Below are positions 6,409 through 50,748 of a stretch of DNA of 64,000 bases, in pieces. The notes beneath the pieces are model-generated. The model made no database searches, had not been told where the DNA came from, and saw nothing but the letters and a program-made list of their open reading frames with translations. The translations under genes and the position numbers were made by a program. The first letter of the stretch is position 1; the number at the start of each line of letters is the position of its first letter. The DNA is taken from positions 19,099,432-19,163,431 of the forward strand of contig OY997592.1 in NCBI GenBank assembly GCA_963921825.1, in the 5' to 3' direction. Source of the DNA: Erodium maritimum (lineage: Eukaryota; Streptophyta; Magnoliopsida; Geraniales; Geraniaceae).

Positions 6409-6409
6409 G

Positions 6410-6422
6410 TGGTATCAGAGCC
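6410..6422 (+). promoter_or_regulatory. primer-binding site, initiator tRNA-Met type
   Basis: TGGTATCAGAGCC, complementary to the 3' end of plant initiator tRNA-Met, lies one base past the LTR end. A second copy follows the other LTR at 13183-13195. Confidence 0.95.
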
Positions 6423-9850: not shown

Positions 9851-9918
9851 AAAGGAGCCAGAGATTGTCGTAGAGTAAGAACCAATTCCTGTTACAATTC
9901 CGGAAGGTCCAAGGCGAT

Positions 9919-11342: not shown

Positions 11343-11482
11343 ACTGAGGTGAAGTGAAGATAACCGATATTGCAACAGATGATAACATAGCCAACCCTTT
11401 GACTAAGGCAGTGTCACTGCCTGAAAATGTTAGACATGTAAAGTCGATGGGGACATATTGGAGTTTAGATTGGAACTAGGGC

Positions 11483-11493
11483 AAGTGGGAGAT
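11483..11493 (+). promoter_or_regulatory. Copia-1 polypurine tract
   Basis: AAGTGGGAGAT directly precedes the 3' LTR, the standard position and sequence type for the Copia plus-strand primer. Confidence 0.85.
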
Positions 11494-17280: not shown

Positions 17281-18030
17281 CTAAGTAGTACCATACCTCA
17301 AAGTCCACCTCCCTGGCCAGACTTGGCCCTGTAGCAAGTGTTTCACCTCCAACCGTACTCGAATTCCCATGAAGTCACCCCAAATCATTCCTCCCTCATC
17401 ATCCTCCACCACCAGGAAAGTTCTCAAGCTATCCCTGGCCTGGAAAACCCACCCCTCGCTTCCAAGCACCCAACGGAAAGTTGGTAACCCTTACTCACAC
17501 CGAGAAGTGGGTGAAGGTGATGTCATGTACCCGCATGTGTGGCTAGAGGTATGTGATCACCACCAGGGATCAACGGAATTCCCAGGGCTCTCCGCTAGAA
17601 TCCTCGCCTTTTCCTTAGTCGCCCAGAAAAATAAGGCCACCACACCTCCTTCTAAAAGACATGATACAAACGCCAGGATTCTCCATAATTTCGAGAACCA
17701 ATCAACGAGATGTTTTCAATGGAAAGACCTCAGAGTCAACACCCTCTTAGCCAGAGCATACGCAATGTTTACTCATCGACCGCATACCTCCGTCAGAGGA
17801 ACCACCACCTCCTACATTTCCAGACCCCCCATTGGCTGCCTAGCCCTACCATTTCCTCTGGTGGGTCATGGGGACCCTGTTCGTGGCCTTGCATGTCAGC
17901 CTCCTCTATTTGTTGCACACCGCCGGATCCACCAACCCTCCCCGTGGGACTTCCATCGGTCGTGTGACATGTTGAAGCTCTTTTGGGTCCCTGAACGTGG
18001 AAGAGGCGACGTTAGATCTTACTGATGAAG
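17281..18030 (-). pseudogene. DUF4283 fragment
   Basis: Read leftward, the clearest piece is LGSEGWVFQARDS followed by VVEDDEGGMIWGDFMGIRV and RLEVKHLLQG. This is the second half of DUF4283, just ahead of where the zinc knuckle should be. The knuckle is absent: the sequence meets the old Copia relic at about 17280. Upstream the frame is broken. The 218-aa plus-strand frame across this region (17369-18025) is its antisense shadow. Confidence 0.55.
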
Positions 18031-21000
18031 TCCTTCCACTAGCCACCCGAAGTTCTATAGCGTCGTCCTCGACGTAAACTAGAAGACATGTTCCCCTCCG
18101 TGCCTCGCCGCCTCGGATGCAAACGAGCCGCTACTGTGGACCACTGTCTTGAATCCATATCTAACGAAACAGATTAATATATTACTAATGCGATAAATTT
18201 AGTTTGATCAGGTAAAGACTTTTTTGCGAACAATGTTGGAGAATACGGGGTATCTTATTATAAATATCCCATGGACGAATTATAGTATGATCGTATACAT
18301 CGAAATATATATTCTTTAGATATTTATAATATTTTATAACACTTTCAAAATATGAAATATCCACAACATGATTTGTAATAAGTAGAGATTTATTCTAAAA
18401 GGTTATTTGTTAGGCACAGGCGCTTCGTCGTCGTATCTCCCGACACCGGTTCGGTCCTTCTCCGTTGTAATGAAGCCGCACTACCCCCATCCCTCACTCC
18501 CCACTCCTCCGCCCGCATTCACCACGTCGATTACATCATAATCACCCTCCCCACCTCGTTTACCGCCCCCACTGTCCCGATCCCCTTCGCAAGTCCTCAG
18601 GGGAAGCCACCAAGACCGTCGCCCCCTGCTCAGCACCTGCTGCCTCTGAAACCGTCGTTATTGTTTTCCCCTCCTTGGCCTCCTCCGAGGCCTCCTCCTC
18701 GATCTCTGATCGATTGGTTATGGTTTACTTTATCCATTATGTTCTGTTTTGCAAGGTTAATGATCAATGAACGACGATTCAGGGTTTTTTCCCAAGGAGT
18801 CAAGGACTTTTACCGAGAGGAATCCCTGATTCACATCTACCATCGTCGATATGCTACCATCGACGATTCAGCCACACCTTGAGCAGTCTTCATCAGTTTC
18901 GCAATCAATCTTGCCAGTTAATTTGTAGATTAAGATTCATAAACTGTACTGCTTTCAACTACTTTTTCAAAACGAGAGCCTTGCTCCCGAGTTTGTTAAG
19001 AGAACTGTGAACAAAGTTTTGTTACTTCGTTCTGTCTGTTCTTTAGTGGTCAGAAAATCTTCCTAAGGCACTACAATATATTCTGAATTCTGATCATTAA
19101 TGAAGATTCTTTCGCTAAAAAAAAGTGGAGATTTATTCTTTTTATGTAATATTAATATTCTAGATTTTATTTTTCATTACTAGACAAAATCGTAATGCCC
19201 TCTTTTGGTGGAAAAACTAACTCGGCCATGGACTCTAGAAACAAATTTGTAGAGCAAGGAACAATTCATTGGAACTAAAGCTTTGGCTCAATGTACAAAC
19301 AGTTGGCACTTGGGGTTGAAGTAATACAAAACCAGGTAGAGGTGGATAAACGGTGTTAGACTCTCTCCTGCATTATCCCACCTCCAAGTATTGGAGATGT
19401 TGGGAGAGAGTCAGAAATGTGTGCTTATTACAGGAATCGGATGGTGGGAATGCAAGGCTTGAGCCTGGGCCTGAACTCGTACCAGGGGACCATGTTCGCT
19501 GCTTGCTTTCTTTCTCACCACTGCTTTTAATGCCTCCAACCCATCGCTTCTTGGGCTTGGAGGGAGTGGGAGGCTTTTTGGTGCCGGAGAAAACCCATTG
19601 CCTCACCGGTCGGAAAAGGATTCGGAGCTATAGTAATACAAATGAGTGCATCCTCTGTAAGTACAGTATAACTAAACATGAGCTGAAGGAGACCAGTTTT
19701 AATCAACGAGTTTGGTACAGACGCGCTATTTTGATCCTATAAAATGCATTCACTAAAGCACGTGCGTTGAAATTCTTTTATTAACAGATCATTGTAACTT
19801 CCATTCAAATTTAGGACACAGGTACAGTTTGGTGCGCTGCGTAGATGTCAAGCGTGTACATACTCGATTTTCCTTGATAGTTTTTTTTTTTCAATTTTTA
19901 ATGTGTAAACCAAATTCTGTTATGAGAACCAACATGAAGACAAGTAAAAACCGTACACCAATTCAGATTCTACCCACCCGGTCAACCCGGCCTACCCGGC
20001 CTTAGTGGGTTTGTTCGCATGAGTTATAAGGACGGCCCGGGTTCAGAAATACCAAATCCGGAGTAAGCGGTCCGGGTAGCGGGTTCGTGACATGGTTTCC
20101 TACTTATCCCGGACCACCCGGATATGGTACAAGTGCAAGGCCAAATGCCACACTCTTACAATTTTAATTACTTTTATAAATGAAGATGAAGATTGATGGC
20201 TTGAGTTTTTGAAGATGATTACCAATTTTGTAATAGAACATCAGTTTTGTGTTGAGTTGAACTCATCTTTTGTAACTATAATTTGTTTTGGGTCAATTTG
20301 AACTCCCTATTTGACGTTTGTAATCCTTGAACCTCTGATAAAATTTCAATGGGGTATAGAGTTTTATCATCATTAAGAAGTGACCAAATTGAAAGCTTCT
20401 AAACACTCTTTGTTGACTTTTTAATGGTGTTTGGAAAATGAAAAAAATATTAGAAAGTATATGTGCTACTACTTGCAGTTAATGTGATTAACTGTTAACA
20501 AATTCGGATGGGTTGGTCCAATCCGGTGAACCGGCCCATAATCCGGACGGGCGGGTTCAAAGGTCCCTTTTTGGGACTGGGACTGGGGCCGGGAGTGGGT
20601 TAAATTTTTTGAATCCGGTCACTCTGGGTCGGTTCAAAAATTTGGCCACGGGGCCGGGGATCGGCCCATGGACACCCTTAACTTAGAGTATGTGAGGAGA
20701 TCAACTGATCTTGATGTCGAGTGTCACTGAAGAGCGATATCAAGATAGGCGTTCCCCGGGATACTGATGTCAATGTCCCCTCTATTGTATCTAATTTATG
20801 CTTGTCACTTCCACGACACTTCTTTTATGTGCCTAAAATCTAAATATGTCATTACTTCTTCTTTTTCTTGCCCTCATAACCCTCTTTGCTAATGGTTGCA
20901 ATGGTGTCCTACCTTCGTCGACAGAACCCTCGACACATCCGTAGCTCTAGCCAAGCCAATCAAGTCGGAGCAAGGGGACGTGCTCCTTTCCGAGCCCACC

Positions 21001-28789: not shown

Positions 28790-31572
28790 ACAACTTCTTC
28801 TTTCATGGCGAATGAGAAAATTCGGCTAGCAGTCTTCCAAATGGGACCGTCAAACTCACGAGGTCCGGACGGTCTTAATCCGAAAAAATTTCAAGTATTA
28901 TTGGGATATCCTAAGACCGGAGGTCATCGAGTTCGTCCGAGAAGCGGTCTCCATGGGACATATTGATAGTGACATTAACAAGACTAGTTTGGTTTTGATA
29001 CCCAAGAAAGTGACGGCCTGGAAGATTGCAGATCTTCGACCAATTTCCCTTTGCAACGTCATTTTCAGAATTTTGTCCAAGGTCCTTGCAAATCGTATCA
29101 AGCCATTGTTGGAACCGATTAAATCTATCAATCAGGGAGCTTGTGTCCCAGGGCGAGCAATTCAGGATGATATATTCATCTCGTCTGAGGTAATCCATGC
29201 CCTCAGACGCCGGACATAGGGGCCAAATGGCTTTATGGCCTTAAAACTTGACATGAGTAAGGTATATGATCGAGTGTAGTGCTCTTTTATTCTAGCAATG
29301 ATGGGAGCTTTCGGGTTTGGGACGAGATGGAGATCGTTGGTACTTGCATGTATGAGATCAATTCAGTATACGGTCAATTTGGACGGGAAAAGTACTTCCC
29401 TATTTATGACAGGACAGGGTATTCGCCAGGGAAATCCTCTGTCACCATATTTATGTTTATTCTGTATGGAAGGTTTATCTCGCATGTTGTCACAGGCAGA
29501 AAGGGATGGGACGCTGCATGGGGTCTTAGTGGCCTGGGGAGCTCCAATAATATCACATATCTTTTTCGTAGATGATTGTTATATTTTCTGTAGGGCGAAT
29601 AACAAAGAGGCCGAACGGCTGCATCAGATACCCACTTACTTTGGGAATATGTCGAGACATGTCATCAACAAGGCCAAATCCTCTATTTTTTCAGCACCAA
29701 CACACCCAAGCTGACCGAGACATTTGTTGTACAGTGCTGGGTATATAGGAAATCTCCCGATCATCGATGTATCTGGGGGTCCCAAATATGTTGGGGAGGC
29801 GAAAAGGGCAGAGCTCACAATTCTTATGTGATCGGCTCGTAACGAAAATTGGGGCATGGGATGGTCAAATGCTCTTGGCAGGGGGTAAGGAGGTAATGAT
29901 CCGCTCTGGTCTACAAGAAATGCCAGTTTATGCAATGAGTGTGTTCATGCTTCCACAGGGGTGTATAAAACAGATACATGTTGCTTTGGCTCGTTATTGG
30001 TGGGCGGGTACCCCGCGCGGAAATAAATACATAATTTGGAAGGATTGGAAAAAGTTGTGTCAGCCAAAGGAGGAAGGTGGAATGGGCTTTTGGGACATGA
30101 ATGTGGCATTATTGGCAAAGATGGGCAAGAAATTTCTCACCCAACCGAAACAGTTTGGTGGCCCGTGTTTTTAAAGCCCAGTATTACTCGACATGTGATT
30201 TTCTCAATGTAGGCGGGGGAACTAACCCAAGTCACATATGGACGGGGGTCCGAACTACACAGACCCTCCTTCGCCAAGGTCTACGCCGGACAATCTGGGA
30301 TGGTCGTTCAACACTAGTTCAATGTGTGCCAAGGTTAATGGGAAATGATCTGATCATACCACTGCACACATCCCTTACTCTGAACTTGATGGTCTTGGAT
30401 TTGACTACAGCGCAAGGGACCGATTGGGACGAACCCAAAATCCGTCAAATTTTCCCTTAGAGGATAATGGAGGACATCTTACCGGTACCCGCTCCCATAT
30501 CTCATCATAAGGACAAGTGGTTTCGGCAATATAATGTTCGGGGAGTATACACGGTTAAAGAAGGGTACATGGTCCTATCCAGAGAAAACGGGAGGTGGCA
30601 TTACACTAGGGGAGTCACGACATGGACATGTATCTGTGATCTAGACACTGAACCCCGAATAAAGATTTTCCTGTGGCGGGCTATGTCGGGTATGCTTCAA
30701 GTAGCGGCGAATCTCCATACTAAACATGTCCCAGTATCAATATATTGCCCTGTCTGTCAAATCGGGGAGGAAAATACTTCACACCTCCTCTTACATTGCT
30801 AGTTTGCCCAGGCTGTCTGGGCTTAGGTCGGTTTACAGGTTCGATTCTTACACATCATTCTCTGTTTGATTAATTATCCTTGGTCGTAGCGCTCCCCGAT
30901 ATGGAAACAAAATGCAAGGTGGCGATGACTATATGGGAATTATGGAAAGCTGGAAATAGAGTTGTTTGGGACAATGCCCGCACGACACCATAAGCCATTA
31001 TAGCTACAGTGATCAGTATTCAGCATAGCTGGGTCGAGGCGAATAGTGGACGGACGAAGGTGATTGCCCCCGTCAGAAGTAGACAAATGGGTTGGACCCC
31101 TCCTCCTCTGACGTGGGTCACATTCAATGTGGACAATTGGGATGGTGGTAGATATGCAAGTCGGCATAAGGAGGGGTGATAGAGGGCCAGAGTGGTATAT
31201 GTCAAGGAAATTTGGGGGCTGAAGTTGTTGAGGCAATGGAAATTTAGCAAACACTCTAGTGGATCCAGGACCAAGCTCTCTCCAGAGTGATCGTGCGCAG
31301 TGATGCATAGTACCCGGTGCACTTGATCTAGGGGAGCCATCGGGTTTTCCCCCATTAGGTCGATTAGTTGATGACTGTCGATCTATTTTGTCTCTTCTCG
31401 AGGATGTTAAACTCGAGTATATCTCTTTGACAACGCACGGGTTAGCCCATTGGTTAGCTCAAGAGGCCCGTTCTGTGTCTGTCCAGTCGTGGTCCGGATT
31501 TACCATTCCGGATGCACTAGGTTGTATTTTGAACCAATTCAAGTAATATATCAGGCCTTCGTTTAAAAAAAA
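28790..31572 (+). pseudogene. LINE-2 (RT, zf-RVT, RNase H), decayed
   Basis: This 5'-truncated non-LTR element has domains in normal order. RT begins at MGPSNSRGPDGLNPKKF and continues with TSLVLIPKKV, LRPISLCNVIFRILSKV and QGIRQGNPLSPYLCLF. The catalytic box reads HIFFVDDCYIF (usually FADD). Downstream are YLGVPNMLGRRKGQ, IIWKDWKKLCQPKEEGG, the zinc-binding part (RIKIFLWRAMSG ... CPVCQIGEENTSHLLLHC, to 30802) and a degraded RNase H starting WVTFNVD near 31110. Stops or frameshifts occur near 28900, 29220, 29270, 29714, 30170 and 30460 and throughout RNase H. A short poly(A) at 31564-31572 marks the 3' end. It belongs to a different LINE subgroup from LINE-1, which keeps FADD and shows no RNase H. 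Confidence 0.9.
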
Positions 31573-31608
31573 GTATCACTATCCAACTTTAAAAATATGG
31601 TAAAATAA

Positions 31609-33125: not shown

Positions 33126-34580
33126 TCGACCAATACTCTGTAAAAGCATTGGAAAAAAACCGACTCTCTCTCTAAAAACTTGTGTTCTCCCTTCTCTCTA
33201 GCTTCTCCCTTCTATCCCTTCTTCTCCGGCGGTGGTGACGGTGGCTTCGGCCACCAAAGCCATCGCCGGACCTTTCTTCTCCTCTAAACCGTCTACCCCT
33301 GTTTCCTTTCGTTGCTTCCCACCTCTTCCCTCTCCGTCATTTGCTCGCCCTCACCCTTCAGATCTGAGCTTACTTTCAGATCTAAGCATATCAACTTCGG
33401 AATCTTGTAGATCTGACCTTCTCCGTTTTAGATCTACAGATTCTTCTGGTTTGAGTGTTGCGGGGTGAGGGTTGGGGGGTTGTTGTCGTGTTTTGTCCCC
33501 CTTGCCTGAGACTGGAGCTCTTCTCTCGGATCTGGCCGTGGGACCTCCTTCCCGGTTGGGATCGTTGCGGATCTAGGTGAATCTCTTCGCAGATCTGGGT
33601 GGTGACGGCGCGTCGCTCTCTCCGGTGCAGCTGCTGTGAAGACCCTTTGCTCTCGACTACTCTTCGGAGACTATAGCTCGCTCGTGGTCGTGCTGTTTCG
33701 TCGCTCTCTTCCTCCCCATGAACCTACTCCGACTTCCCCTCCTGGATCTGTAAGTCCTCGTTTTCCCTCTTTTGGGGCCCCGCCGCCGATGGGTTTCCGG
33801 CCGTGGGGTGGTTCACCAGCGTTGACTGGTTTTAGGCAAGGGAAGGGTTTGGCGGTTGTTGGAGTGATTTGGTTCGGTTGTGGATTTAGATCTTTAGATT
33901 TAATCCACGCCTCTTTTGTTGTGGTGCTGGCCACCGACGAGGATGGATCTGTCATGGGGAGGTCACCGGAGCCTTTACTCCTCTCTCCCGCAAGTTTTTT
34001 GAAGCTAGGCCGAACTCGAGACCATTTCATTTCTCCTGTTCGATTCCGGCGACGGGTTGAAGTTCGGGTGGTCTCGACTCCCCTTTGGGTTGCTCTGTGG
34101 TGTTGGCCATGGACGAGTTCCATTCGGAACTGAGCAGTGTTCGGGGGTTCTATGACTTGGGAGTGTAGGGTGGGCTTCCTCGGTGGTGTTAGTGTTCGTG
34201 GTGGTGGATCTTGAGCCCGGAGGTGCTGGTCAGTCCTTGGTGGTAAGGTGTCTTCGGTTTTCTGCTTTCTGGCTCTGTTTTAGCCTGTTCTTTGTTTGTA
34301 CTTCATGTTTGGTAATATGGGTACTAGACCTGGTTCTTGTTAGTTTTCATTTGTTTTGAAGCAACTTTTTTGTGAATGGTTGTGTACCATTTTAGTTCTC
34401 TTCATGGTTGTAAAATGTGGGTGGTTAGACCTTAGGTTGTACCCAGAAATGGGGTCTGTAGTTCTGGTTTGGATGTCTTGCTGACATGCCTCTTGTTTGT
34501 GTTCTGGTGAGTTCATCTCATGACCTCTTTTTCAGTTCGAAAAACTGGCCCTCAATAAAACATTAGCTGATCAAAAAAAA
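33126..34580 (+). mobile_element. 1.45-kb poly(A) retroposon, copy 1
   Basis: It is flanked by the 14-bp duplication AACCTACATACTTA (33112-33125 and 34581-34594) and ends in AATAAAACATTAGCTGATC plus A8, so it inserted by target-primed reverse transcription. Near its start is CTCTCTCTCTAAAAACTT, followed by a CG-rich hairpin-like stretch (GGTGACGGTGGCTTCGGCC). No known protein is encoded: the best frame (165 aa at 33636-34133) has an open antisense partner and no recognisable domain. A related element with the same start motif and length is at 44371-45783. They are probably non-autonomous derivatives of a LINE. Confidence 0.8.
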
Positions 34581-35179: not shown

Positions 35180-36326
35180 TTTAACTATTTTTCCTTATTC
35201 TATTTTTTTTCATTCTAATTCAATTTCACTATTTATTTTTGTTCTGAACACTAACTCTGGCTAAAGCACAGTGCCAAAATTTGAGAATTACACATCTAAA
35301 CACAAAATTACTATCCAGCATCATCTTCAGAAGTGCAAACGCACCTTCTATGCTACCAATTTTATGTAGTCCATAATTACGACATTTGATATCACTGTAT
35401 TGTGTGTAATTCCAACTACCACAAGCAGAATTTTCAAAAACCAAATGAAATGAAATTAAACCCTAATTCCATTAATCCTATTAAAACTAAACCCGAAACT
35501 TAATTTTATATGAAAAAATCACACAAAAAAACCCAAATTCGAGATTTGGCTACGGGTTTGAGGATTTGAGAGGAGGCTTCAAATCTAGCTACGGGGAAGA
35601 AGAATGTGGTTTGAAGTCGATGGCTCGTGCTCATAGGAAGAGGGAAGAAGATGTAGAAAACAGGACTGGTGGGGCCATGAGCAGAGCATTTTGGCTTCGA
35701 ACTACCGTCGTGCGTAAGGAGGGAGGCGGTGTGGACATGCGTGAGAGGTCTCCAGCTACGTATGCTTGACTAGTGGCTAATATCGAATACGGCTGGCCAA
35801 TCTTGCTGGCGGCGGAGCACGGGCGGGGTATGAATCTTACCTTCCCGAATGTGTAGAGTGGTCTGCGTCGGTTTGGATGATTATGAGGGTTTGGTTTATT
35901 GTGAGGGATTAAGGGTAGTTTAGGACTTGAGAAGACTAAAGGTAGTTTTGGCATTTTTTTTCAAAAAAATATTGTCATGTGCTATGCACCTGACTATTTT
36001 TGTTAAAAAAGAAACGGCGTTAGACTGGTTTGAGCATAGGTAGAAGTCAAGGTGTCGGTTTGTTACTTCTCAAAATTAAATATAACTTTTTGAAAATAGT
36101 TGAAAGTTGAGGGTAACTTTACGATATTATCTCATTTCTTTTTAGTTTTTAATATCTTTACTTCAAATGGCACTTCGACTTTCCTGATATTTTTCGGTCT
36201 AAAATAATGTTAATTGGCGTAAAATGAAACAAAAAACACAAACTGATATATTCAAAAATTAATTGTATGACAACACGCATAAAAAGGATAAACGGATTCT
36301 AGTTTAATCATAATATTTGGAAAGAT

Positions 36327-37313
36327 AAAAAGTTTAAGAATATGAAATCTGAAAAAATTAGGACGAAACCCACTCTCGTAACTTGAGATCTCTCTCTAGC
36401 CCTAACCGCGTGCGATAGCTATGGAGCTTCCCTCTGTCATCGCCGCTGCTCTGACCTTTGTCGTGCCTCCACCTAGGGTTTGCGTCGCTGAGCTTGTCGG
36501 CTCCGCTACCAGTGCAATCCAATCCCTCATAGACTGTGCCCGTTGCTAGGGATAAGACACGCCGAAGGAGGAAACTAAACCACTTGCTCCGACTTCTTCC
36601 TCCTCTCCACCCTCTACGCCTGCACTACCGTCGCTAATTACGGGAACCTCGACGGAGCTGGTTCCCTTCTCCATGGGAGAGGTTTCTTCTTCATCGGTTT
36701 TGAAACCGAGACAGAGAAGGCATGTGCGGCGTCCCACTGTTGCTTATTCCCCAAGCAACATGCGACCGCATCCTCCACCAAACCATAGTCCGTTGAACCT
36801 TAGTCCGCTGAACCCTAGTCCACCGCCCCCAACCAAGCCACGACCTTGCTTTGGCTCCTGTTATGCTTGTCGGCGTGATTCCTAGGGCTGCGAATCCCGC
36901 TCCCCAACACGCCCCTCTACGCATGTTCCCCCACAGGCTCCGCCGTTGTAGCTGGATCCGGCCAAAGGAAAGGCTCCTATAGAGGACCTTCCTAGGACGG
37001 CGGTAAAGACCCTAGGGTTAGGGAAGTGCCTTCCTAATCAAGGGAGGATCCCATTCATTCCTGTAGGCCTCACGACCCCAGCGGGGATGACCCGCGACTG
37101 TTCGCGGCACTTGGATACGGACGAGATATCTTTGTCCACAACTGCCCTGGCTCCGGACCTTCAAGCCTCCCTGGCAGGCCTTTAGGATGGTCCGTCGTCC
37201 TGTTCGCTTGAAGATGAAGACGAGGTCGAGGTCGTTGTTCCGTTCTCTCTGGCCGTCTCAACAGCCATTGCTCGTCAACAATGGGGTATGGTGGGGAAGT
37301 TGTGGTCACCAAA
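36327..37313 (+). pseudogene. DUF4283 retroposon copy A, segment 1 (N-terminus)
   Basis: From the ATG at 36421 (MELPSVIAAALTFVV) one frame, with about five stops, runs through a Pro-rich tail region and GKAPIEDLPRTAVKTLGLGK. It then enters the start of DUF4283 (IARQQWGMVGKLWSPK) at the LARD insertion point. The residues match copy B (48422-50748, minus), which has GKAPMEELPRTAALALGLG and GLLGRLWSPK at the same positions. The 5' end is placed near 36327, where ATTTGGAAAGA resembles the sequence after the poly(A) at 46777; this duplication is imperfect. Segments 2 and 3 follow after the insertions. The coding sequence is decayed and only ORF1-type domains are present. Confidence 0.75.
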
Positions 37314-37463
37314 TGTCACTCCCCAAATTCGGTAGAACCGAACCCAGAACGCGAACGGTGAAACAATAAAACAATTTTCAAACCCTTTTAAGTAAACCGC
37401 TTAAAATCACCATTTAGTTAATCAAAATAATATTTTACAACTTAAAAGTACGTCCAAAACAAG
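37314..37463 (-). repeat. 150-bp LTR end fragment
   Basis: It starts TGTCACTCCCCAAATTCGG and follows the LTR at 41014 almost base for base (ACGCGAACGGTGAAACAAT, AAAAGTACGTCCAAAACAAGC), stopping where that LTR continues with GGACAAAAAC. A SINE follows directly, and then a new LTR start. Confidence 0.9.
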
Positions 37464-37661
37464 CTGCAGCTCAATTGGTGATAGCATCACTCAAGGAAAT
37501 GCTATAAAGGGTGAGGTCTTGGGTTCAAGTCTCACCAACAACCTAAGTTGGTATTTGTCTGTGGACAGTACACCAGAGGGGTAGGGCTGTATTGGGCTGC
37601 AGACCTAACATCGCCGCGCGTGGGGCCCGGGTCTGGCTCGGCGGGATGTTACAAAAAAAGC
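37464..37661 (+). mobile_element. tRNA-derived SINE
   Basis: The ~198-bp unit starts TGCAGCTCAATTGGTGATAGC, which carries an A-box-like stretch. A B-box-like GGTTCAAGTCT follows about 50 bases later. It has a body ending GGCTCGGCGGGATGTTAC and an A-rich tail. This is the usual plan of a plant SINE with an internal RNA polymerase III promoter. The sequences on either side (AAAACAAGC and AAAAAAAGC) could be a worn target duplication, but the LTR does not resume after it; a second LTR begins instead. Confidence 0.75.
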
Positions 37662-40609
37662 TGTCACGCCCCAAATTCAGAAGAACCGAACCCGGAACGC
37701 GAACATTAAAACAATAAAATCATTTTCAAACCTTTTAAATAAATCGCTTAAAATCACCATTTAGTTAATCAAAATAATAATTTACAACTCAAAGCACGCC
37801 CAAACAAGCGGACCAAAGACATGGCGTACGTCGCTAAACTCAAAAGGAAACTCGGACTCCCGCTCCCATCTCTTCAAGCTTCGAGAGCTCCCCTACTCCG
37901 TCTCGCGACCAGTACCTGTGGGAAAAGCAGTTAGGGGTGAGCGTTCGCTCACCACCACGGATACAAGAGTGACTATGGCATACCAGCAGACAATGCCGGA
38001 AACACCAACAACAACCCAAACACCGGGGACTACTATCCCCAACTCAAGTAACCCGACTGACACACAAACTATTACTTTCCCCAACCAACTCAACACTCGG
38101 ACATGTAATGTAGACCCGGCACAGCGGTTACGACCTTCACCAAAGACACAAAAGATAACCACGCAACACCCAAGATCACAAAGGATCGCACACCAAACAA
38201 GATCACAAAGGATCGCACTCCAGCTGCTCAGTGCCGGTTGCTAAGCGGTTGGGCTCGAGCCTGCCCCACGCAACTTCCCCGATCCCTGTCGGGTCAGGCG
38301 GTCGACCTGTCTGCGATATACAACGCAATACTTTTCCGATAGCTGGTCAGAAGGGGAGCTGCCCTTCATCGCCAAAGAATGCTCAACCTTACCGATCTAT
38401 GTCGGGAGGCTAGCCAACACCCACGCAACTTCCCCCGATCTCTATCGGGCCCCCAACCTCAGGCAACCACAATCACAACCAAAGTTCAACAACAAGCGAC
38501 AACACAGGTTTAACACTCCACATGCACTCATGGCCACCCAAGACACCAACAGTAAAACACGGGTTCAACAACCCCACGGGCACTGATGGCCACCCAAGGC
38601 ACACCAACAGTAAAATACGGGTTTAACAACCCCACGGGCACTCATGGCCACCCAAGACAGACCAACAGTAAAATACGGGTTTAACAACCCCACGGGCACT
38701 CATGGCCACCCAAGACACACCAACAGTAAAATACGGGTTTAACAACCCCATGGGCACTCATGGCCACCCAAGACACCAACAGTAAAACACGGGCTCAACA
38801 ACCCCACGGGCACTCATGACCACCCAAGACACACCAACAGTAAAACACGGGCTCAATAACCCCACGGGCACTCATAGCCACCCACAAACAATACAATCAA
38901 CCTCCGGGCATAACCAAATGCCTCCAATATTTCTAATATCAATACGTTCACTGCTCCTACGACACTACTAAGTGTCACATGCATTTATATTGTTCGATAT
39001 GTTCCCGTATCATACGACACCACCCGATGTCGCCTGCCTTTCTATTGTTCGATAAACTTACTTAACACACGACACCTAAGTGTCACATGCATTTCTACTA
39101 TTAACTTTCCCTAGTCAGGGCCGAGATACGGCTGCTTTTCCCTACCTCGTACGCTTTCCCAAAAGTTCCCAACCAAGCACCGGCGTGCTCACGATCACTC
39201 GCCTAGCTTTCCCTTTCCTCTGTCGGTGGCACGATCTAATAAGAACACAATTTAAAACACTTTTAAGTTCGCAGGCATAAACTGAATTTTAATACACTTG
39301 ACGCCCAAACGCAACCCCGACAATGTCGATCACTCCAAAACTTCCCAATTACTCGACATTGTCGATAATGGGCCCGGAAAGGCCCGTTTCGCCCGACCCG
39401 GCGAATCTGCCCGGGATTGGAAAACATCCTTCCGGGGCCCCGAAAATTCCCGTTTTCGTTTCCACGATCTTAGAATAATTCAAGGGTTCCAACGAAATCG
39501 AAAGAATCAATTTCCGACTTCCGAGCAATTTAATTCGCGTTTAAAGTTTCTAAACCCGTCATTTACAATTTTTACAATTTAATTCCAAAATTCGTTTCGG
39601 GTGTGGATTAACGACTTGGGGAACGTTCTAAACCACCCGAACACGAAAACCCGAGACCCGAGCATGTGGGCCCCACTCGGCCATCAAGGGCCGTGGGTGG
39701 CTGGGCCGGTTCACCACCATGGTGGCCGACCCTAGCTCCGGCCAGCCACCCCCCAACTCCGGCAACCACCATCCATGGTGGCCGGAGCTCCCCCGAGCCT
39801 CCGGTCACCGGAAAACGTTCATCTTTCGCTCCAAAACGCCTCCAACGAACCCCACACCTCAACTCACCCATAGTCTACTCGTTTTAACCCAAACCCTAAA
39901 CTTTAAACGTACCAAAACGAAAATCGAAAGGGTGCTCACCGTAGGGAATGACGGTGGGAGCTCGATTCCTTGATCGTTGAGACGATCCACCGGTTGGATA
40001 GTCGGAAAATATCAAAACCCTAACTCCCCCTTCTCTTTTCTCTCCTTCTTCTCTCTTCTTTTCTCTCCCTAAAACTCCCTTCTTTTTCTATTTTTTTGAA
40101 CCTATGGCCGAACCCCCCCCCCCCCATATGGTCTTCCTTTGTTTTGTTCAATGTTACCTAACACCACCACATTGGTGACATGTGGCAAGTGGGTCACATC
40201 CCTATTGGAAAATATCTTCTAAATATTTTTCAGTCAGATTCGCGAAATTCGGCCGTCTCGGACCCCGAACGGGCACATTTTCCAAGAAATTATGAAACTT
40301 CACGAGCTACAAGGAAACGGCTCAACTAAGACCGCTGTGACGACGGCTAAGCCTTTTGGATCCAAAACGGACCTCGAACGGACCAAAACGTCGCTCGGTT
40401 GACTTTTCCAGTAGAAAGTCAACCTTTCCCGAATTGGTCAGAAAGTTGCCCTGAGTCCCCCAGAACTCACTTTGGTCGATATCGGGGTCAACTTAAGTCC
40501 GGTATGACCCTCGGGGTCAAATTAGGTTCATTTAAGTGTCTGTCCCAAAATTTTAAATTTTCCTGCTTTTCGCCGATTTGACTAGCGTTGACCGGGAGTG
40601 GTTCTTACA
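37662..40609 (-). repeat. LARD 3' LTR
   Basis: This 2948-bp LTR runs from TGTCACGCCCC to GGTTCTTACA on the plus strand. It carries about seven 56-58 bp tandem units (38530-38880) and ends in the same TGACCGGGAGTGGTTC... block as the 5' LTR. Numerous substitutions and indels separate it from the LTR at 41014, so the two did not come from one recent insertion. Confidence 0.9.
38520..38885. repeat. 56-58 bp tandem repeat, about 7 units
   Basis: The unit contains CCAACAGTAAAACACGGG, CAACCCCACGGGCACTCATG and GCCACCCAAGACA. The same unit is present about 15 times in the other LTR (41935-42830) and about twice in the LTR at 313-410. Confidence 0.9.
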
Positions 40610-41013
40610 CCAACAAATTTAAACACACGCCCACAGGGCCAACCAATTTTAAAACTTTTCTCCCTTTCATCATAAAATCTCATTTTTGACATCACGTAGT
40701 TACAACCCGGTCCAGGCGTCCCCGAACTACATTGTACCCACTTGACATCAGCACCGTCACGTTCGACTACAGGAGCGCTCCTGAGTCGAGTTGCGACAGC
40801 TAAAAAACGTTTCACGCAGCAACACACAAACATTATGCCAGTAACCACAGTACTGCACATACACACAACACAAACAGGACTCATGTCATTACGGGTCTAC
40901 ACACGGTTTCCGACTTGCGCAACCAACGCACGACGGGACTTTTAATGACTCGACTCTCCCCACCTAATTGACGTACAGTCCGAGGTGTGAAACCTCGAGC
41001 TCTGATACCAAAC
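40610..41013 (-). other. LARD internal region and primer-binding site
   Basis: The element has about 404 bp between its LTRs. On the minus strand it opens with the primer site TGGTATCAGAGC (41010-40999), complementary to initiator tRNA-Met. No Copia or Gypsy protein is encoded. One 100-aa minus frame (40884-40582) crosses into the LTR and looks like chance. I see no clear polypurine tract before the 3' LTR. Confidence 0.85.
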
Positions 41014-44000
41014 TGTCACGCCCCGAATTCGGTAGAACCGAACCCGGAACGCGAACGGTGAAACAATAAAACAATAAAACAATTTTCAAACCGTTTTAAG
41101 TAAACCGCTTAAAATCACCATTTAGTTAATCAAAATAATATTTTACAACTTAAAAGTACGTCCAAAACAAGCGGACAAAAACTAGAGCATACGTCGCTAA
41201 ACTCCCAAAAACCCGGACTCCCACTCCCAGCTCTTCAAGCTTCGAGAGCTCCCCTAGTCCGTCTCGCGACCAGTACCTGTAGGAAAAGCAGCTAGGGGTG
41301 AGCGTTCGCTCACCAACACAGATACCAGACTGACTACGGCATACTAGCAGAAATACCGAGAACACCAACAACGAACAAAACACCGGGGACTACTATCCCC
41401 AAACTCAAATAACCCGACTGTCATGCGAACTGTTACTTTCCCCAACCAACTCAACACCCGGACACGTAATGTAGACCCGACACAGCGGTTACGACCTCAA
41501 CCCAAAGACACAAAAGATAACCACGCAACACCCAAGATCACAAAGGATCGCACTCCAGCTACTCAGTGCCGGTTGCTAACCGGCTGGGCTCGAGCTTGCC
41601 CCACGCAACTTTCCCCGAATGCAGTCGGGCCAGGCGGTCGACCTGTTAGCGATATATTCCGCTATACTTCTCTGATAGCTAGTCGGAAGGGGAGCCGCCC
41701 TCCATCGCCGAAGAATGCACAACTTTACCGATGGTTAGTCAGAAGGCTAGCCCACCCTCACGCGCGCGACCACAGAACCCATTTATTGTCAGGCGGGCCC
41801 CCAACCTCATCGCAGAAGAATGCACAACTTTACCGATTGTTAGTCGGAAGGCAAGCCAACCCCCACGCGCGCGACCACAAGACCCCTTTATTGTCAGGCG
41901 GGCCCCCAACCTCAGGCAATCACAATCAACACCCAAGGTTCAACACGCCAAAGGCACTCATGGCCACCCACGACACACCAACAGTAATACACGGGTCAAC
42001 ACCCCAAAGGCACACATGGCCACCCACGACACACCAACTGTAATACACGGGTCAACACCCCAAAGGCACTCATGGCCACCCAGGACACACCAACAGTAAT
42101 ACACGGGTCAACACCCCAAAGGCACTCATGGCCACCCACGACACACCAACAGTAATACACGGGTCAACACCCCAAAGGCACTCATGGCCACCCAGGACAC
42201 ACCAACAATAATACACGGGTCAACACCCCAAAGGAACTCATGGCCACCCACGACACACCAACAGTAATACACGGGTCAACACCCCAAAGGCACTCATGGC
42301 CACCCACGACACACCAACAGTAATACACGGGTCAACACCCCAAAGGCACACATGGCCACCCACGACACACCAACAGTAAGACACGGGTCAACACCCCAAA
42401 GGCACACATGGCCACCCACGACACACCAACAGTAACACACGGGTCAACACCCCAAAGGCACACATGGCCACCCACGACACACCAACAGTAATACACGGGT
42501 CAACACCCCAAAGGCACACATGGCCACCCACGACACACCAACAGTAATACACGGGTCAACACCCCAAAGGAACACATGGCCACCCACGACACACCAGCAG
42601 TAACACACGGGTTCAACACCCCAAAGGCACACCTGACCACCAACGACACACAAACAGTAAAAACACGGGTCCAACACCCCAAAGGCACACCTGAACACCC
42701 AAGACACGCAACGGTAAAATACGGTTTCAACTCCCCACCGGCACTCATGGCCACCCAAGACAAGCAACAGTAAAATACGAATTCAACTCCCCACGGGAAC
42801 TCATGGCCACCCAAGACACACAACGGTAAAATACGAATTAGAACACTTTTTAAGTTCGCAGGCAAAGCTGAATTTTAATAAGTTTGACGCCCAAAAGCAA
42901 CCCCGACAATGTCGATCACTCCAAAACTTCCAAATTTCTCGACATTGTAAAAAACGGGCCCAGAAATGCCCGATTAGCCCGGCTCGACGAATCTACCCGG
43001 GATCAGAAAACGCCATTCCGAGGCTCCAAAAATTCCCGTTTTCATTTCTACGATCTTAGAATAATTCAAGGGTTCCAATGCAATCAAAGGAATCAATTTC
43101 CGACTTCCGAGCGATTTAATTCGCGTTTAAAGTTTCTAAACCCGAGATTTCTAACTTTCACAATTTAATTCCATAATTCGATCTGGGTGTGAATTATCGA
43201 TTCGGGGATCGTCCAAAACCACCCGAACACGAAAAACCCGAGGCCCGACCAAGTGGGCCCCACACGGCCACAACGAAAAATATTCCTTTTCGCCCCAAAA
43301 CGTTTCTAACGAACCCCAATCCTTAACCCAACCTTAATCAACTCATTTAAACTCAAACCCTAAAATTAAAACGTTCCAAAACGAGAAAAAGACGGGTTCT
43401 TACCGTAGGGAATGACGAGGGGAGTTCGAATCCGCAATCGTTGAGACGATTCGTCGGTCGGATCGTCGGAAAATCGCCAAATACCCTCACTTTTTCTCTT
43501 TTTCTCCTTCTCCTCCTTCTCTCTTCTTTCTCTCTCCTTTTCTCTTTCCTTTTCTCCTTTTTTTTTTCATTTGGCCGACCACTCTCATCTTACCTTTCCT
43601 TTTATTTTGTTCAAAAACCACCAACCACCCTTATTTACAAAACTACCACTCATCCTTTCTTTTTCTTTATTTTAAAAACCAACTACCACCACTTGTGTGA
43701 CATGTGGCAAGTGGGTCCCACCCTTTAGAAAAATATCTTTGTAGATATTTTTCAGCCAGATTCGCGAAATTCGGCCGTCTCGAGCCCCGAACGGGACCAT
43801 TTTCCAAGAAATTGCGAAATTTCACGTGCTACAAGGAAACGGCTCAACTAAGACCGCTGTGATGACGGCTAAGCTTTTTGGATCCAAAACGAGCCTCGAA
43901 CGGACCAAAACGTCGCTCGGTTGACTTTTCCAGCAAAAAGTCAACATTTCCCAAATTGGTCAGAAAGTTGCCCTGGGTCCCTCAGAACTCACTTTGGTCG

Positions 44001-44132
44001 ATATCGGGGTCAACTCAAGTCCGATATGACCCTCGGGGTCAAATTTAGGTTCATTTAGGTGTCTGTCCCAAAATTTTAAATTTTCCTGTTTTTCGCCGAT
44101 TTGACTGGCATTGACCGGGAGTGGTTCTTACA
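41014..44132 (-). repeat. LARD 5' LTR
   Basis: This 3119-bp LTR has TG...CA ends in element orientation and directly adjoins the primer site. It contains an array of about 15 tandem 56-bp units (41935-42830). The 150-bp fragment at 37314 is its closest match in the window. Confidence 0.9.
41935..42830. repeat. 56-bp tandem repeat, about 15 units
   Basis: Near-identical 56-bp units (CAACAGTAATACACGGGTC, AACACCCCAAAGGCAC, CATGGCCACCCACGACACAC) repeat with a regular step (for example GTCAAC at 41995, 42051 and 42107). They diverge toward 42830. Confidence 0.95.
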
Positions 44133-44137
44133 CCAAA

Positions 44138-44359
44138 GGTCACCCGGAAGGAAACCCTCCTACGTATCATCACTACCGCGTGGGGGGTGCTGTCTAGGGA
44201 CTCGTTGTCAAGGACCTAAGGTCATGTCTCTTTGGATTTTATTTCCGATCCTCTGAAATTCGGGCATGGGTCAGGGACAACGAGCCTTGGTGCTTTGACG
44301 GGCATGCCCTCTTGCTCGGGGATCTGGACCCCTGTGCTCGGGAGCTGCTTGTTCTGGAT
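44138..44359 (+). pseudogene. DUF4283 retroposon copy A, segment 2
   Basis: Between the LARD and the next insertion the retroposon resumes with KVTRKETLLRIITTAWGVL (DUF4283 start), then a broken stretch and ARELLVLDRVQ. Copy B reads RKDMLLRVITNAWG and APELPALDRVQLW at the same place, which confirms continuity across both insertions. Confidence 0.85.
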
Positions 44360-44370
44360 CGTGTGCAGTT

Positions 44371-45783
44371 TTTTTTTTATAAAAACCAAGTTTTCAAAAA
44401 GATCGAAAACAAGGTTAAGGGCGAACCCTCAAGAACAAGTTACAAACACGAGCCTGCCAAACAGACAGCTCAAACCAACTACCCAAAGGGTATGAACACC
44501 AACAAAGGGTCTAGTACCCAGATACACTAACCATAAACACAACAAGATAAAACCTAGTCCCAACAAGGGAAACTAAATAGTACAAATCAGGGAAATACAA
44601 ATAAATCACAAATAAACAAAGCCCTAAACAAAACAAGAGCACGGGCCCAAACCAAACCGAACCAGCCCAAAGAAGCAACTGATGTCGCGAGCTCCTCGGG
44701 AGTGATACTCGCGTGCTCCTCGGGCAGTGAGCCACGCGTGCTCCTCGAGCATTGAACGCAATAACCTCGGGCAGTGTACCTTGAAAGCCGCGCCACCACC
44801 GACGATGAGATCAGCAGACGCAGACAACACTTCTCTGAGCACCACCAAGACCAGACGCCGCCAAAGAAACGACGACCGGCAACTCTTCCGACCACTCCCA
44901 CACCGACCTCACCGGACAAGAGCTCCACCAAACAGAGGGAGTCATCGATTCGCTCAGCCCAACGTTACCGAAGAGGTAACACTCCTCCATCCAACACTGG
45001 GAGGAGTCCAGAAGGGGAAGGCCGATATCAAATAGAGACCGAGCAAATAGAATGAAGCCCTCCAACAGATCCAGTCCCCAACCACAAAACCCCCAACAAG
45101 GGACCCAAGACCGCCGGCCAACACCGATTGCAGTCAGTCCGAAATCTCCAAAATGAAGAAAACGAGGAGGAGATGGGGAAGGAAACCATACCTGAGAAGA
45201 GAACTCTCGAACCAAATGAAGCTTGAAGCCGCCGAGGACCCAAACCGAACCACCAGGTGACAAAACAGCGCGTCACGAGTAGAAACCCCAACCCAAAACC
45301 TTCCAAGCTTCCAACACAGCCAAACCTGGCCAAACTCTTCGTCGGAGACATGACACTCCGACGAAGCCCGGAACACCACCATGCCCGAGAAACAAAGAAG
45401 AAATAGAGGAGAAAGGGACAGGTACTACCCGAACAACACCACCCGAAACCCAACAGATCTGAGGGAGGAGGCAACGGGGAGGTCAGATCCGACCACGGGG
45501 AGAGAAAACAAGGCTCAAGGGTGCCGGATCTGAAGCGGAAGACGAAGAAACACGACCAAAACCCAGGAAGAGCCAAGAAGAGAAAAAGAAAACAACGAGA
45601 AAATGGAGAAGGAAAGGAGGGGAAGCAACAAAAAGGGAGGAGGGAGGCTTCACCGGTGACGACCTTGGCCTGAAGGCCATGGCCGTCACCGGCGAAGAAA
45701 GGGCTCGACGAAGGAGAACTGAAAGGGAAGCTTTTTAGAGAGAGGTGGGAGAGAAAGTTTTAGAGAGAGATTAGCTAAGCCCA
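44371..45783 (-). mobile_element. 1.4-kb poly(A) retroposon, copy 2
   Basis: It is flanked by the 11-bp duplication CGTGTGCAGTT (44360-44370 and 45784-45794). The minus strand starts near TTAGCTAATCTCTCTCTAAAAC and ends in poly(A) (T-run at 44371-44378). Copy B of the DUF4283 retroposon has the empty site (GATCGAGTGCAGTTGTGGG). It shares the CTCTCTAAAA start, a CG-rich GGTGACGGCCATGGCC stretch, GGGTACTAGACC and overall length with 33126-34580. Several minus frames are open (182 aa at 45576-45028, 150 aa at 45263-44811), but they overlap and show no domain I know. Confidence 0.85.
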
Positions 45784-45794
45784 CGTGTGCAGTT

Positions 45795-46777
45795 GTGGGC
45801 ACATGCGCGAGGTTTGCCACCTCTTGTTCGGACAAAAGAGACGGGCACATCAATACGGGATGCGTTGGGACGTGTGTGGATGTCCCGAGTGACCAATGGG
45901 AAATGTGGTGGGGTGGCACTATCAGGGTTCGGTTTTGGTACCTTCTTGAGAGGCCCCTCCAGCAAGGCCTGGTCTTTGGGTTTAAGGAATTACCGGAGTC
46001 AGTCAAGATCGAGCTGACATATTCTAAGCTCCCGAGTTTCTACTACAATTGTGGAAGACTTGGACATGTTTTGAAGGATTGCACATGGGTGGTCAGAGGC
46101 ACTCTAAGGTATGACTCCTCTTTGTTGAAATATCAGAGAGATAAGCAGGTAAAGTCATACGCGACGGATTGGGGAGAGGCTCCTCACACACCCGTTTCCT
46201 CGAGCACTGTACCTAAGGGCGCCTTATCTCTAGATACCCCCCCCCCCCCCCCCCGGGTTTCCACGGGCACTATACCTAACGGTATTGTGGCTCGGGGAAT
46301 CGGCCAGCTCTATGTTGACTCGGTTGTTGAAGTTCCAGCGCCCACCTCTTGTGGGTCTAGAGATGATGGTGGGAGTGCTGCGACTGGAGCTTTCAAAAGG
46401 TTGGCAACAGGAGCGCCTCAGGAGGATCAGGCGAGGGCTGGGAAACAACATTTCCATGAGGAATGCTAGACCGGCCGAGCATCAAGGACTGTCCCTAGGA
46501 GGGGTCCCTACACGATGCTTTGCCTCCCACTACTACTGTTGAGGTCCTTGGCCAGCTTTCAGAGTAGGACTTCCGGTACCCCCTTCTCATCCCCCGTATT
46601 CTATCATTGCCCAAGAGGCGTCACAATACCGGTTATGGCGGTTCTAGTATTATAAGGACTAGTGAACCACTGTTCTTTATTCAGTCTCTTTCGTAGTCGG
46701 AGAACCTGATTTTCGATGCACATCATTATAGTTGATTTAAATAATAAAAATTGCACTTTTCGCTCAAAAAAAACTAA
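45795..46777 (+). pseudogene. DUF4283 retroposon copy A, segment 3 (zinc knuckle, 3' end)
   Basis: The segment reads GTCARFATSCSDKRDGH in one frame. A frameshift separates this from the 45795-46469 frame, which carries LTYSKLPSFYYNCGRLG followed by HVLKDCTWVVRG, the DUF4283 end plus a CX2CX4HX4C-type knuckle in which the first Cys is Tyr (YYNC). A C-run of 16 at about 46240-46255 encodes prolines. The frame ends at 46469, and only about 300 bp of 3' sequence follows before TTTTTCGCTC and a poly(A) at 46768-46775. There is no ORF2. The 3' end is the same as in copy B. Confidence 0.85.
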
Positions 46778-48410: not shown

Positions 48411-48421
48411 AGTCACACTTT

Positions 48422-50748
48422 TTTTTTTGAGCGAAAAAAACAGTTCCATTTAATAAGTCAAACTACATAGAAGTGCATCGAGGAACAGGCTCTTCGACCA
48501 CTGAGCCAGGGTCAGATAGAGTGAACATAAGTTCTCTGACCCTTTTAGTACCATAACCGTCACCGACGATGTTTTGATGCCACATGAGCAATGAAAGAAG
48601 ATAAACGAAGAGACAAGAAGACCGGAGATCTCTATGGACCTCAACAATAAGAGTGATGGGGGGAGACAACGCATCATACAAGGACCCCTCCCGGATCCAG
48701 TCCCAAATGCATGTGCCAGTACTCATTCCTTTTGGCGGGGCTACTTGCCCGCCCTAGCTTGATCATCCCGGGGATCCTCGAACGCCGGCCTTTTGTTAGT
48801 ACCCTAACAATACCCAGGCCAACCGCTCCAGCTAATATTTCCCCCGTTGCTCCCTCGTCCACACGAGCTCCTGCAAGCTCAGTGGGTCGTGGCAAAACCT
48901 CTAAGCGAGAGACCGGAGGCTGGGGTGGAGCCTTACTAGTTGAGCCCTCAAACTCTGAGCATGAAGCAGGGGGCTGGGCTGGGGCCCTACTAGTCGACCC
49001 CTTAAGTTTCAATCGAGGGGGCGTGGGAATCCGGGGAGCTTTGGAAAACTGCAGATACCTTGCCGGGCCAAAACCCAGGGGTGGTGTAGGCAGACTGCCC
49101 GTTTCCCCCCAGTCAGTGGCATACCGGCTGACCTGCTTTTCCTTATTGTACTCCAGCATGAAAGATCCAAGTCGAGGTGGACCTTGAACTGCCCACGTAC
49201 AGTCCTTCAGGATATGACCTATCCGGCCGCAGTTATAACAGAAGTTCGAAAGCTTTGAGTATGTGAGTTCCACACTGAAGGGGTCTGGAAACTCTAGGAA
49301 CCGGAGCACCAGTCCTTTCCTTTGGGGTCGTTCCAAAAGATGCCATAATCGAACCTTGACAGCCCCTCCCCAGCATATACCCAACTGGTCACATGGGACC
49401 TCTACACACATTCCCAAGGCATCCCCGATAGAGATACCCGTCTCCCTTGTCCGAACCAAGGGCGGTACTCCACTAGCATGGACCCACAACTGCACTCGAT
49501 CTAAGGCGGGCAACTCCGGAGCGCAAGTATCCAAATCCCCCAGCAGTAGAACCCGGCCATCGAAGCATCATGGCTCGTTACGTCGGGCCCACGCCCTAGG
49601 TTCTGACGACCGAAAATAGAAGCCGAATAGTCCCGACCGTATGTCCTTGACCACTATCCCATCCGCAGCCCTACCCCATGCATTGGTAATAACCCGGAGG
49701 AGCATGTCCTTCCGAGGGGGTTTGGGTGACCACAAGCGACCTAGCAGCCCCTATTGTTGGCTAGCTAGTGCCGCTGTTGTTGTTGCCCAGGACGCCAGGA
49801 CCATCACCTCAATCTCCTCCTCCTCATCCAAAGAACAAGACGAAAGCCCGTCCTGCAGACCTTCCAGGGACACCTGGAGCTCAGCCTCCTTGGGGGTCCC
49901 AGCCGAAGGGAATTCCTATGTAAGAAGGTGTTGCGCTCGGTCCCGAGTCATCCCTGGCGGAGTAGTCAGAGCCGCCGGTATGATCAGGCGGTTGGCCGGG
50001 TTGGGAAGGCACCGCCCTAGTCCCAAAGCTAGAGCCGCCGTTCTAGGGAGCTCCTCCATAGGGGCTTTTCCTTTCACTGGGTCTCTCTACAAGACAGGAG
50101 GTACCCTTTGTTGAATCCCCACGTCATCAGATGTAGGAATAACCACATGTTCCCACGTAATTTTGGGAGTCGGTGGTCGAACCGGGTTAGGGTTCAGAGG
50201 GGGAGAAACCCTAGGGAAGATCGGGGTAACCCCGAGAATGGGCGGAACCCTAGAGTCCCCAATAACAACATCGATACTTACCCCAGCCCTAACCCTCCAT
50301 GTTTCCACTCCATTGGCCAGCATAACCCTAGGGTTCCCGTCCCCACGGGTCTGGACCAGAGCAAAGTTGTGACCGATTGGGGAGCCATCATAGAGGGGTT
50401 GAGGGGCAGATGAAGTAGGGTTTGGGGGAGGTAAGGCCAAAAGGCGATTACTTGGAGTAGAAGGTACCCTAGGTTGGCGCAACGGTCGGCCCCTCTTCGG
50501 CTTAGGAGCCGATACCAGAGGTGGCGCACCAAAGGAGAATCCTCCTGTTGAGATTGGATCTAGGGGTAGATTAGTCGTAGGGTGGTGAAGTCACGGTAGC
50601 CTTGAGTTTACGGCGAGGGGAAGGGAGAGGGAGGAGAGGACCACTAGTAGGAGCAGCGGTTTCCGGAGCAGACATCACGGTTGTAGCAGGCGCGACAGCG
50701 GCGGAGGACGGGGTAGAAAGCACTACAACGACGGACGCGGACTAGATT
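48422..50748 (-). mobile_element. DUF4283 retroposon copy B, full length, ORF1 only
   Basis: This 2.33-kb poly(A) retroposon is flanked by the 11-bp duplication AGTCACACTTT (48411-48421 and 50749-50759). The minus strand ends TTTTTTTCGCTC plus poly(A). In one frame from about 50482 to 48674, with stops near 50087, 49917, 49752 and 49565, it reads a Pro-rich N-terminus, then DUF4283 (GLLGRLWSPK, LLRVITNAWG, GLFGFYFRSSEP, ALDRVQLWVHASGVPPLV, VKVRLWHLLERPQRKGLV). The zinc knuckle FCYNCGRIGHILKDC (CX2CX4HX4C) follows, then a Pro/Ser-rich tail. Known plant LINEs have such an ORF1 followed by an RT-encoding ORF2 of several kilobases; here the poly(A) comes about 250 bp after ORF1. Copy A has the same structure. 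RT would have to act in trans. Confidence 0.85.
48674..49534 (-). pseudogene. ORF1 (DUF4283-CCHC) of copy B, longest open part
   Basis: The open 286 codons begin LDTCAPELPALDRVQLW in the middle of DUF4283. They run through VELTYSKLSNFCYNCG and RIGHILKDCTWAVQG (zinc knuckle near residues 120-135) and end in a Pro-rich tail. The plus-strand 158-aa frame opposite is an antisense shadow. The upstream part of the same frame has stops, so the apparent start is not the original one. Confidence 0.8.

Follow-up and report, generated by a model that had tools for sequence, protein, structure and literature searches.

A probable HAL1-like lineage of ORF1-only, non-autonomous LINEs in Erodium maritimum

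Introduction

The window considered here, a 64,000-nt stretch of Erodium maritimum DNA, holds two retroposons, A and B, in which an ORF1 with a DUF4283 domain and a zinc knuckle is followed, after a short non-coding stretch, by an A tail. Are these deletion products of full LINEs, or do they belong to a lineage that spread with ORF1 only? DUF4283 is typical of plant LINE ORF1, and Celine of poplar, an autonomous plant L1 LINE, has an ORF1 with this domain, a 189-bp 3'UTR, poly(A) and target duplications that average 15 bp (PMC11288735).

ORF1-only LINEs are already known in mammals and flies. The mammalian HAL1 (half-L1) elements are derived from L1, carry ORF1 only, have a poly(A) tail and target duplications, number ~2,100 copies in human and depend on the RT/EN of full-length LINEs (PMC5322556, PMC5753468). 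HeT-A of Drosophila telomeres has one structural ORF1 and no RT, relies on another element, forms tandem arrays attached to chromosome ends and carries a promoter in its 3'UTR (PMC4700185). Among the best matches of the literature searched, a scope that lay outside Repbase and in which 'plant line' also catches transgenic lines, there was no case of a plant ORF1-only LINE. The relevant passages of a plant TE review describe SINEs as riding on LINEs and do not mention ORF1-only LINEs (PMC9033089).

Results

Structure of the two elements

Element B (Table 1) is flanked on both sides by the 11-nt duplication AAAGTGTGACT and has an A tail, which bears out both boundaries given in the earlier note. 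A-runs of at least 8 (27 in all, 16 + 11) were scanned for a following exact 11-nt repeat no more than 3 kb away; B was one of three matches, and the controls, in which the 11-mers were reversed, reverse-complemented or complemented, gave 0, 1 and 0 matches. In a looser, family-wide duplication test the B 11-mer was matched or beaten by 32 of 420 swapped pairs. ORF1 of B, which has frame shifts near either end, consists of a basic/proline-rich N-terminus, an acidic stretch, DUF4283, the CCHC knuckle and a proline-rich linker. With its four stops read through it matched DUF4283 (E 2e-11) and zf-CCHC_4 (E 2.8e-6), and on these profile matches it can be taken as homologous to LINE ORF1. B is without a leader, and its relatives extend ~40 nt farther at the 5' end.

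Element A (36325-46773, plus strand) is split by two later insertions. Its target duplication, TAAT(A)ATTTGGAAAGA, is 15-16 nt long with a 1-nt indel, and 4 of 3000 random pairs score equally well. A matched zf-CCHC_4 at E 1.8e-7, and its DUF4283 part was assigned through 79-80% identity to B. Without the insertions A measures 2,201 nt, against 2.33 kb for B, and the tail joint lies 296 nt (A) and 294 nt (B) from the ORF1 stop, so the size of about 2.2-2.3 kb, the 250-300 bp between ORF and tail and the common 3' end that had been proposed were all recovered. Unlike Celine, which has a 3,765-bp ORF2 with EN and RT (PMC11288735), A and B lack both EN and RT; the ORF2 that follows ORF1 in an autonomous plant L1 is absent, and the 294-296 nt after their ORF1 are non-coding.

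Table 1. Positions, within the window, of elements A to D and their parts
Feature	Position	Strand	Description	Basis
Element B	48421..50748	-	ORF1-only LINE-type retroposon, 2.33 kb with A tail	target duplication, tail, relatives
ORF1 of B	48677..50578	-	single frame except three TAG and one TGA	
Zinc knuckle of B	49199..49237	-	YNCGRIGHILKDC	
3'UTR of B	48429..48722	-	294 nt, from the stop to the tail joint	stop matched to A (48725-48723)
A piece 1	36325..37313	+	leader common with the B family, ORF1 N-terminus (ATG 36421)	
A piece 2	44138..44370	+	DUF4283 part	
A piece 3	45795..46773	+	DUF4283 end, CCHC knuckle, ORF1 stop (TAG 46467-46469), 3'UTR, A tail	
3'UTR of A	46470..46765	+	296 nt	
Later LTR-type insertion in A	37314..44132	+	TG..CA ends	5-nt duplication CCAAA
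Element D	44371..45783	-	later RT-less retroposon in A, 1.4 kb (1.41 kb)	duplication CGTGTGCAGTT, A tail
Element C	18397..19121	+	RT-less retroposon, 0.72 kb, of a repeated short family	3' end related to A and B

Comparison of A and B

The coding order is the same in A and B, as the earlier note had it, and both ORF1s contain a DPxKGKAPxE motif after the basic/proline-rich N-terminus and a C-terminus with DQARAGK. Over four BLAST segments, which cover ~1.36 of the 2.33 kb, identity is 63-68%; it is 44-45% in the N-terminus/leader and in the linker. In nine gap-free blocks chosen by eye, 324 codons in all, A and B differ at 78, 56 and 205 first, second and third codon positions, which corresponds to a pN/pS of 0.23 (0.19-0.28), and 208/324 residues are identical. 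Three regions that were not picked by eye agree with this result (32/113, 26/113 and 72/112; 18/75, 10/75 and 45/75; 38/144, 28/143 and 91/142). There is little third-position signal in the linker (34/66, 35/66 and 39/66) or in the far N-terminus and leader (104/192, 94/188 and 122/189). Fourfold sites are identical in 29/100 cases against 25.5 expected. Copy ages calculated from stop codons, ~0.07 per site for B and ~0.26 for A, are unreliable, the value for A being too high for a pN of 0.19.

The alignment runs gap-free through the ORF1 stop (36/61 on the diagonal, next best 27), the first 33 nt past the stop are identical at only 15/33 positions, and over the 3'UTR as a whole 177/274 positions are identical, compared with 42% (sd 2.7) in shuffles. 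We rejected one segmental duplication as the origin of the pair, an outcome that would have told against the proposed lineage: A and B lie on opposite strands, have different flanks and duplications and are only 63-68% identical, and are therefore separate insertions.

Families that share the ORF1-3'UTR joint

The genome search that the earlier note had suggested was made in the 763-Mb assembly with B, the last 979 nt of A and the 3'UTR of A as queries, and large families with a common joint were found. With B, 39 of the 40 scored loci (the best 40 of 2,443 first-look candidates) cross the joint between ORF1 and the 3'UTR; identity is 76-90% in the main rows, and 26/41 typed rows are close to full length. 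When the query was the last 979 nt of A, 38/40 cross it (best 40 of 3,280 first-look candidates), while the 3'UTR of A alone gave 2,377 candidates, of which the best 40 scored at 83% or more. The joint is thus passed by 77/80 scored loci, and an ORF2 lies between ORF1 and 3'UTR in 0/80, the scored loci being the most similar ones, a selection that could miss rare or more distant ORF2-bearing relatives. In the B-query exception the match starts within ORF1, and one of the 39 joint-crossing B-like loci has 609 nt inserted in its 3'UTR. Both A-query exceptions are broken within ORF1 by unrelated DNA; in one, this DNA matches an RT piece at 19% identity (E 0.027), which was taken as chance, and in the other there is no such match. 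Most related copies continuing into an ORF2, the result that the earlier note had named as contrary to its view, is therefore not what the genome contains among these loci.

The same counts dispose of the idea that A and B are two unrelated internal deletions of full LINEs that look alike by chance. LINEs commonly suffer internal deletions, which gives the idea its general appeal, but a joint common to 77/80 scored loci refutes it, leaving it practically no probability, and the preference already expressed for a stable lineage over two chance deletions holds.

Twenty near full-length loci of the 40 B-like ones were fetched, making 21 copies with B. The fetched copies are 2.34-2.51 kb long (ends called by the analyst), are 79-90% alike, have no ORF2 and mostly end in TTTCGCT(C/A) followed by A. 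In 12/21 copies the target-duplication candidate is better than 95% of 420 swapped pairs. An intact ORF1 was found in none of the 21, the longest stop-free stretch being 162-420 codons, and the sampled B family looks to have been dead for long. The leader of A matches 18/21 of these copies (0/500 shuffles for each), the misses being B, L019 and L022; A and the B family therefore share their start point, B being slightly truncated. In searches for homologues elsewhere, none of 7,995 and 1,426 candidates from protein searches reached E <= 0.001 and <= 1, respectively, and contig scans gave 11 and 1 pattern matches, of which 0 were confirmed.

Selection while the B family spread

Changes were placed by parsimony, by codon position, on a tree of the 21 B-family copies, where terminal branches represent neutral decay after insertion and internal branches the source elements as they spread. 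Terminal branches carry 704, 603 and 653 changes at the three positions (ratio of third to mean first/second 1.00; transversions 240/215/208), and the third-position count of 653 compares with a permutation mean of 654. Internal branches carry 136, 112 and 237 changes (ratio 1.91; transversions 44/40/79), and here the third-position count of 237 compares with a permutation mean of 162 and a maximum of 206 in 5,000. On internal branches, DUF4283 (23/7/36) and the knuckle region (23/12/56) give the strongest signal, and the N-terminus (33/46/54) and linker (38/32/48) a weak one. The internal ratio stays at 1.76-2.00 when copies are left out one at a time, and the result is the same with trees built from the 3'UTR and leader, from third positions or from first plus second positions. 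A count made without a tree agrees, with less contrast (78/59/110 for minor states seen in 4 or more copies, 307/287/291 for singletons). ORF1 was under purifying selection while the ORF2-less B family spread, which upholds the proposal that the lineage keeps its ORF1.

The 3'UTR was constrained as well. On internal branches it has 0.205 changes per column, third positions have 0.408 and first/second positions 0.214; on terminal branches the values are, in the same order, 1.07, 1.12 and 1.13. Since there is no third-position excess on the internal branches (25/23/12), the constraint is not that of a reading frame. A second ORF in the 3'UTR was accordingly rejected: a frame is open in B and several relatives, yet the A-B differences there are 32/30/35. 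A structured 3'UTR was likewise rejected, the tails folding no better than shuffles (z -0.9, 0.0, -1.0); 4/59 consensus pairs have double changes, which come from two sequences and are not proof of structure, and Rfam gave 0 matches. A structure prediction with a mean pLDDT of 27.7 was not used.

The tail motif and the search for a partner RT

By itself, the 10-mer TTTTTCGCTC does not exceed chance in the window (8 sites at no more than 1 mismatch, 5.3 expected). Together with an A tail it occurs at 10 genome sites, and the variant TTTCTTTCGCTM with six A at 61, with 0 for the reversed controls. Tail-motif sites were sampled without the use of ORF1: 8 new sites were read from the 10 exact TTTTTCGCTCAAAAAAAA sites, and 40 of 53 new ones from the 61 TTTCTTTCGCTMAAAAAA sites. 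With four ORF2 pieces from the window as tblastn queries, RT or zf-RVT was found directly upstream of the tail in 0/8 and 0/40, and a partner LINE with a matching 3' end, which the earlier note had advised looking for, was not among these 48 sites. A zf-RVT match does occur at L050 and L061, but farther up, at ~1.8 and ~2.3 kb from the tail and outside the retroposon.

Grouping of the 40 sites gave 14 of B type, 9 that are C/A-like, 5 in a third family and 12 that remain ungrouped, and target duplications are clear against swapped tails in only 8/40. In the B-type group, 10/14 extend up into ORF1. The other four (L067, L073, L074 and L079, the X elements) have a B-type 3'UTR, 87-90% identical to B from ~20 nt past the ORF1 stop, under another body; L067, L073 and L074 share ~1.08 kb up to the tail, including a second, diverged 3'UTR-like module. 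RT-less families therefore share their 3' ends or have exchanged them. Among the 61 genome sites the end TTTCTTTCGCT(A/C) with an A-run is common to RT-less retroposons whose bodies are unrelated, and this suggests a single RT with a strict 3' end.

The body of element C does not align with A or B (z -0.6 to 0.6), and its tail exceeded shuffles (0/500 twice, 0/1000 twice). The A/B profile finds C only at E 0.96, and the strong match of a three-row profile is circular. Three of the 40 tail sites match C over most of its length.

These data bear on two further explanations. The elements might be processed retrocopies, their source being a host gene that arose by domestication of a LINE ORF1; the tail, the duplications, a full ORF with UTRs, the purifying selection and the AATAAA- or ATTAAA-like signals 23-26 nt upstream of the element ends fit this too. 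Set against it are thousands of first-look candidates in nested subfamilies and several RT-less families with other bodies that end in the same tail motif, and we regard a host-gene origin as very improbable. A less remote explanation is that autonomous LINEs with the same ORF1 and 3'UTR kept yielding copies that had only ORF1, for instance through splicing, or that ORF2 was lost once in the A family and once in the B family. Spliced L1 RNA is known to give insertions with the same junction (SpIREs, PMC5860796), HAL1 arose several times independently (PMC5753468) and 3'UTRs have been exchanged between bodies; the selection on internal branches could then reflect the autonomous source. However, such a source should leave ORF2-bearing copies, so that their absence counts against it, both between ORF1 and 3'UTR in the 80 scored loci and, for RT, directly upstream at the 48 tail-motif sites. 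SpIREs, moreover, are described as dead ends (PMC5860796). Repeated loss is therefore unlikely, if distinctly less so than a host-gene origin.

Discussion

We conclude that A and B probably represent a HAL1-like, ORF1-only, non-autonomous lineage that came from plant L1-type LINEs and used the RT of another LINE. The elements of this lineage, 2.2-2.4 kb in length, consist of a short leader, an ORF1 with DUF4283 and zinc knuckle, a stop, a 3'UTR of ~295 nt and an A tail, and A and B are best read as dead members of two large, distantly related families within it. That leader, ORF1, joint and tail are common to both would be explained most simply by a single ancestral loss of ORF2. Given the exchange of 3' ends and the low identity just after the stop, the joint shared by A and B need not mean one loss.

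The lineage resembles HAL1 in having ORF1 only, an A tail with target duplications and large multi-copy families with a common joint. It differs in occurring in a plant, in its DUF4283/CCHC ORF1 and in a 3' end common to several RT-less families. Mammalian ORF1p is a coiled-coil protein. Selection on ORF1 in an ORF2-less family, as seen in the B family, is an added test and not a feature that defines HAL1. HeT-A is not known to have a two-sided duplication, whereas the A and B families are dispersed and have duplications on both sides, and so do not fit the HeT-A type. The TR-GAG elements of plants also keep gag with pol absent, but these are LTR elements that are copied by a different route. 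Plants, and a DUF4283/zinc-knuckle ORF1, thus join the short list of RT-less LINE parasites that keep ORF1.

As to the mechanism, an RNA polymerase II transcript would be translated to ORF1p, which would bind the RNA that encoded it; the conserved 3'UTR and end would then capture, in trans, the endonuclease/RT that an autonomous LINE encodes, leading to target-primed reverse transcription. In human cells pol II transcripts require ORF1p besides ORF2p (PMC2666806), and ORF1 may be kept for this reason, that is, by ORF1p acting on its own RNA. The RT would be taken in trans, although no partner LINE was found. The selection on internal branches offers natural evidence that a LINE RNA needs the ORF1p that it encodes, whereas another source can supply ORF2p, and the constrained, exchangeable 3'UTR marks the sequence that a borrowed RT may recognise.

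A wider reading is conceivable, to which we lean somewhat less than to its opposite. The ORF1-only A and B families, the X elements, the short C family and others would all end in TTTCGCT(C/A)-A as a tag for one LINE RT, under different bodies and without an RT of their own. Within this set the ORF1-only lineage would be long-lasting, its silent sites being saturated, and would need its own ORF1p while taking ORF2p in trans.

Other elements in the window

A LINE ending near 27.6 kb was rejected as the partner, its 3' end giving no match (z -0.3, -1.1). The RT-bearing LINE at 28800-31575 (+), whose 3' end near 31.56 kb is CCTTCGTTT followed by A, is weakly similar to the ends of A, B and C: its scores were reached by 6, 12 and 5 of 500 shuffles, by 3, 10 and 0 of 1000 shuffles and by 9, 5 and 12 of 1000 window pieces, with a profile E of 0.028. 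On this weak similarity of ends it may serve as a lead to the partner group.

Element F (33126-34580, +) is a complete RT-less retroposon of 1.46 kb with a duplication and an A tail. It is distantly related to D (z 5.7, 0/200 shuffles), and the two make up one more non-autonomous LINE-like family, whose 3' end is a different one.

The LTR-type insertion in A looks like a LARD, its LTRs of ~3.3 and ~3.1 kb flanking ~0.4 kb, and a stretch that we take to be primer-site-like, CTCTGATACCA, adjoins the right LTR. Near the start of the left LTR lies a tRNA-like stretch at 37464-37657 (GCTCAATTGGT ... GGTTCAAGTC), which we presume is possibly a SINE, after which a second LTR start follows. A tandem array of 56-bp units occupies 41822-42737 inside the right LTR, with related units at 38515-38884.

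At 4721-14082 a near-identical pair of direct repeats, 6.77 kb apart, is probably a young LTR element; beside it lies a decayed knuckle ORF (4363-4518, minus) that matches ORF1 of B at E 3.5e-5. Just before element C, a decayed stretch at 17290-18170 (-), read by eye, may be a fragment of a DUF4283-like ORF1.
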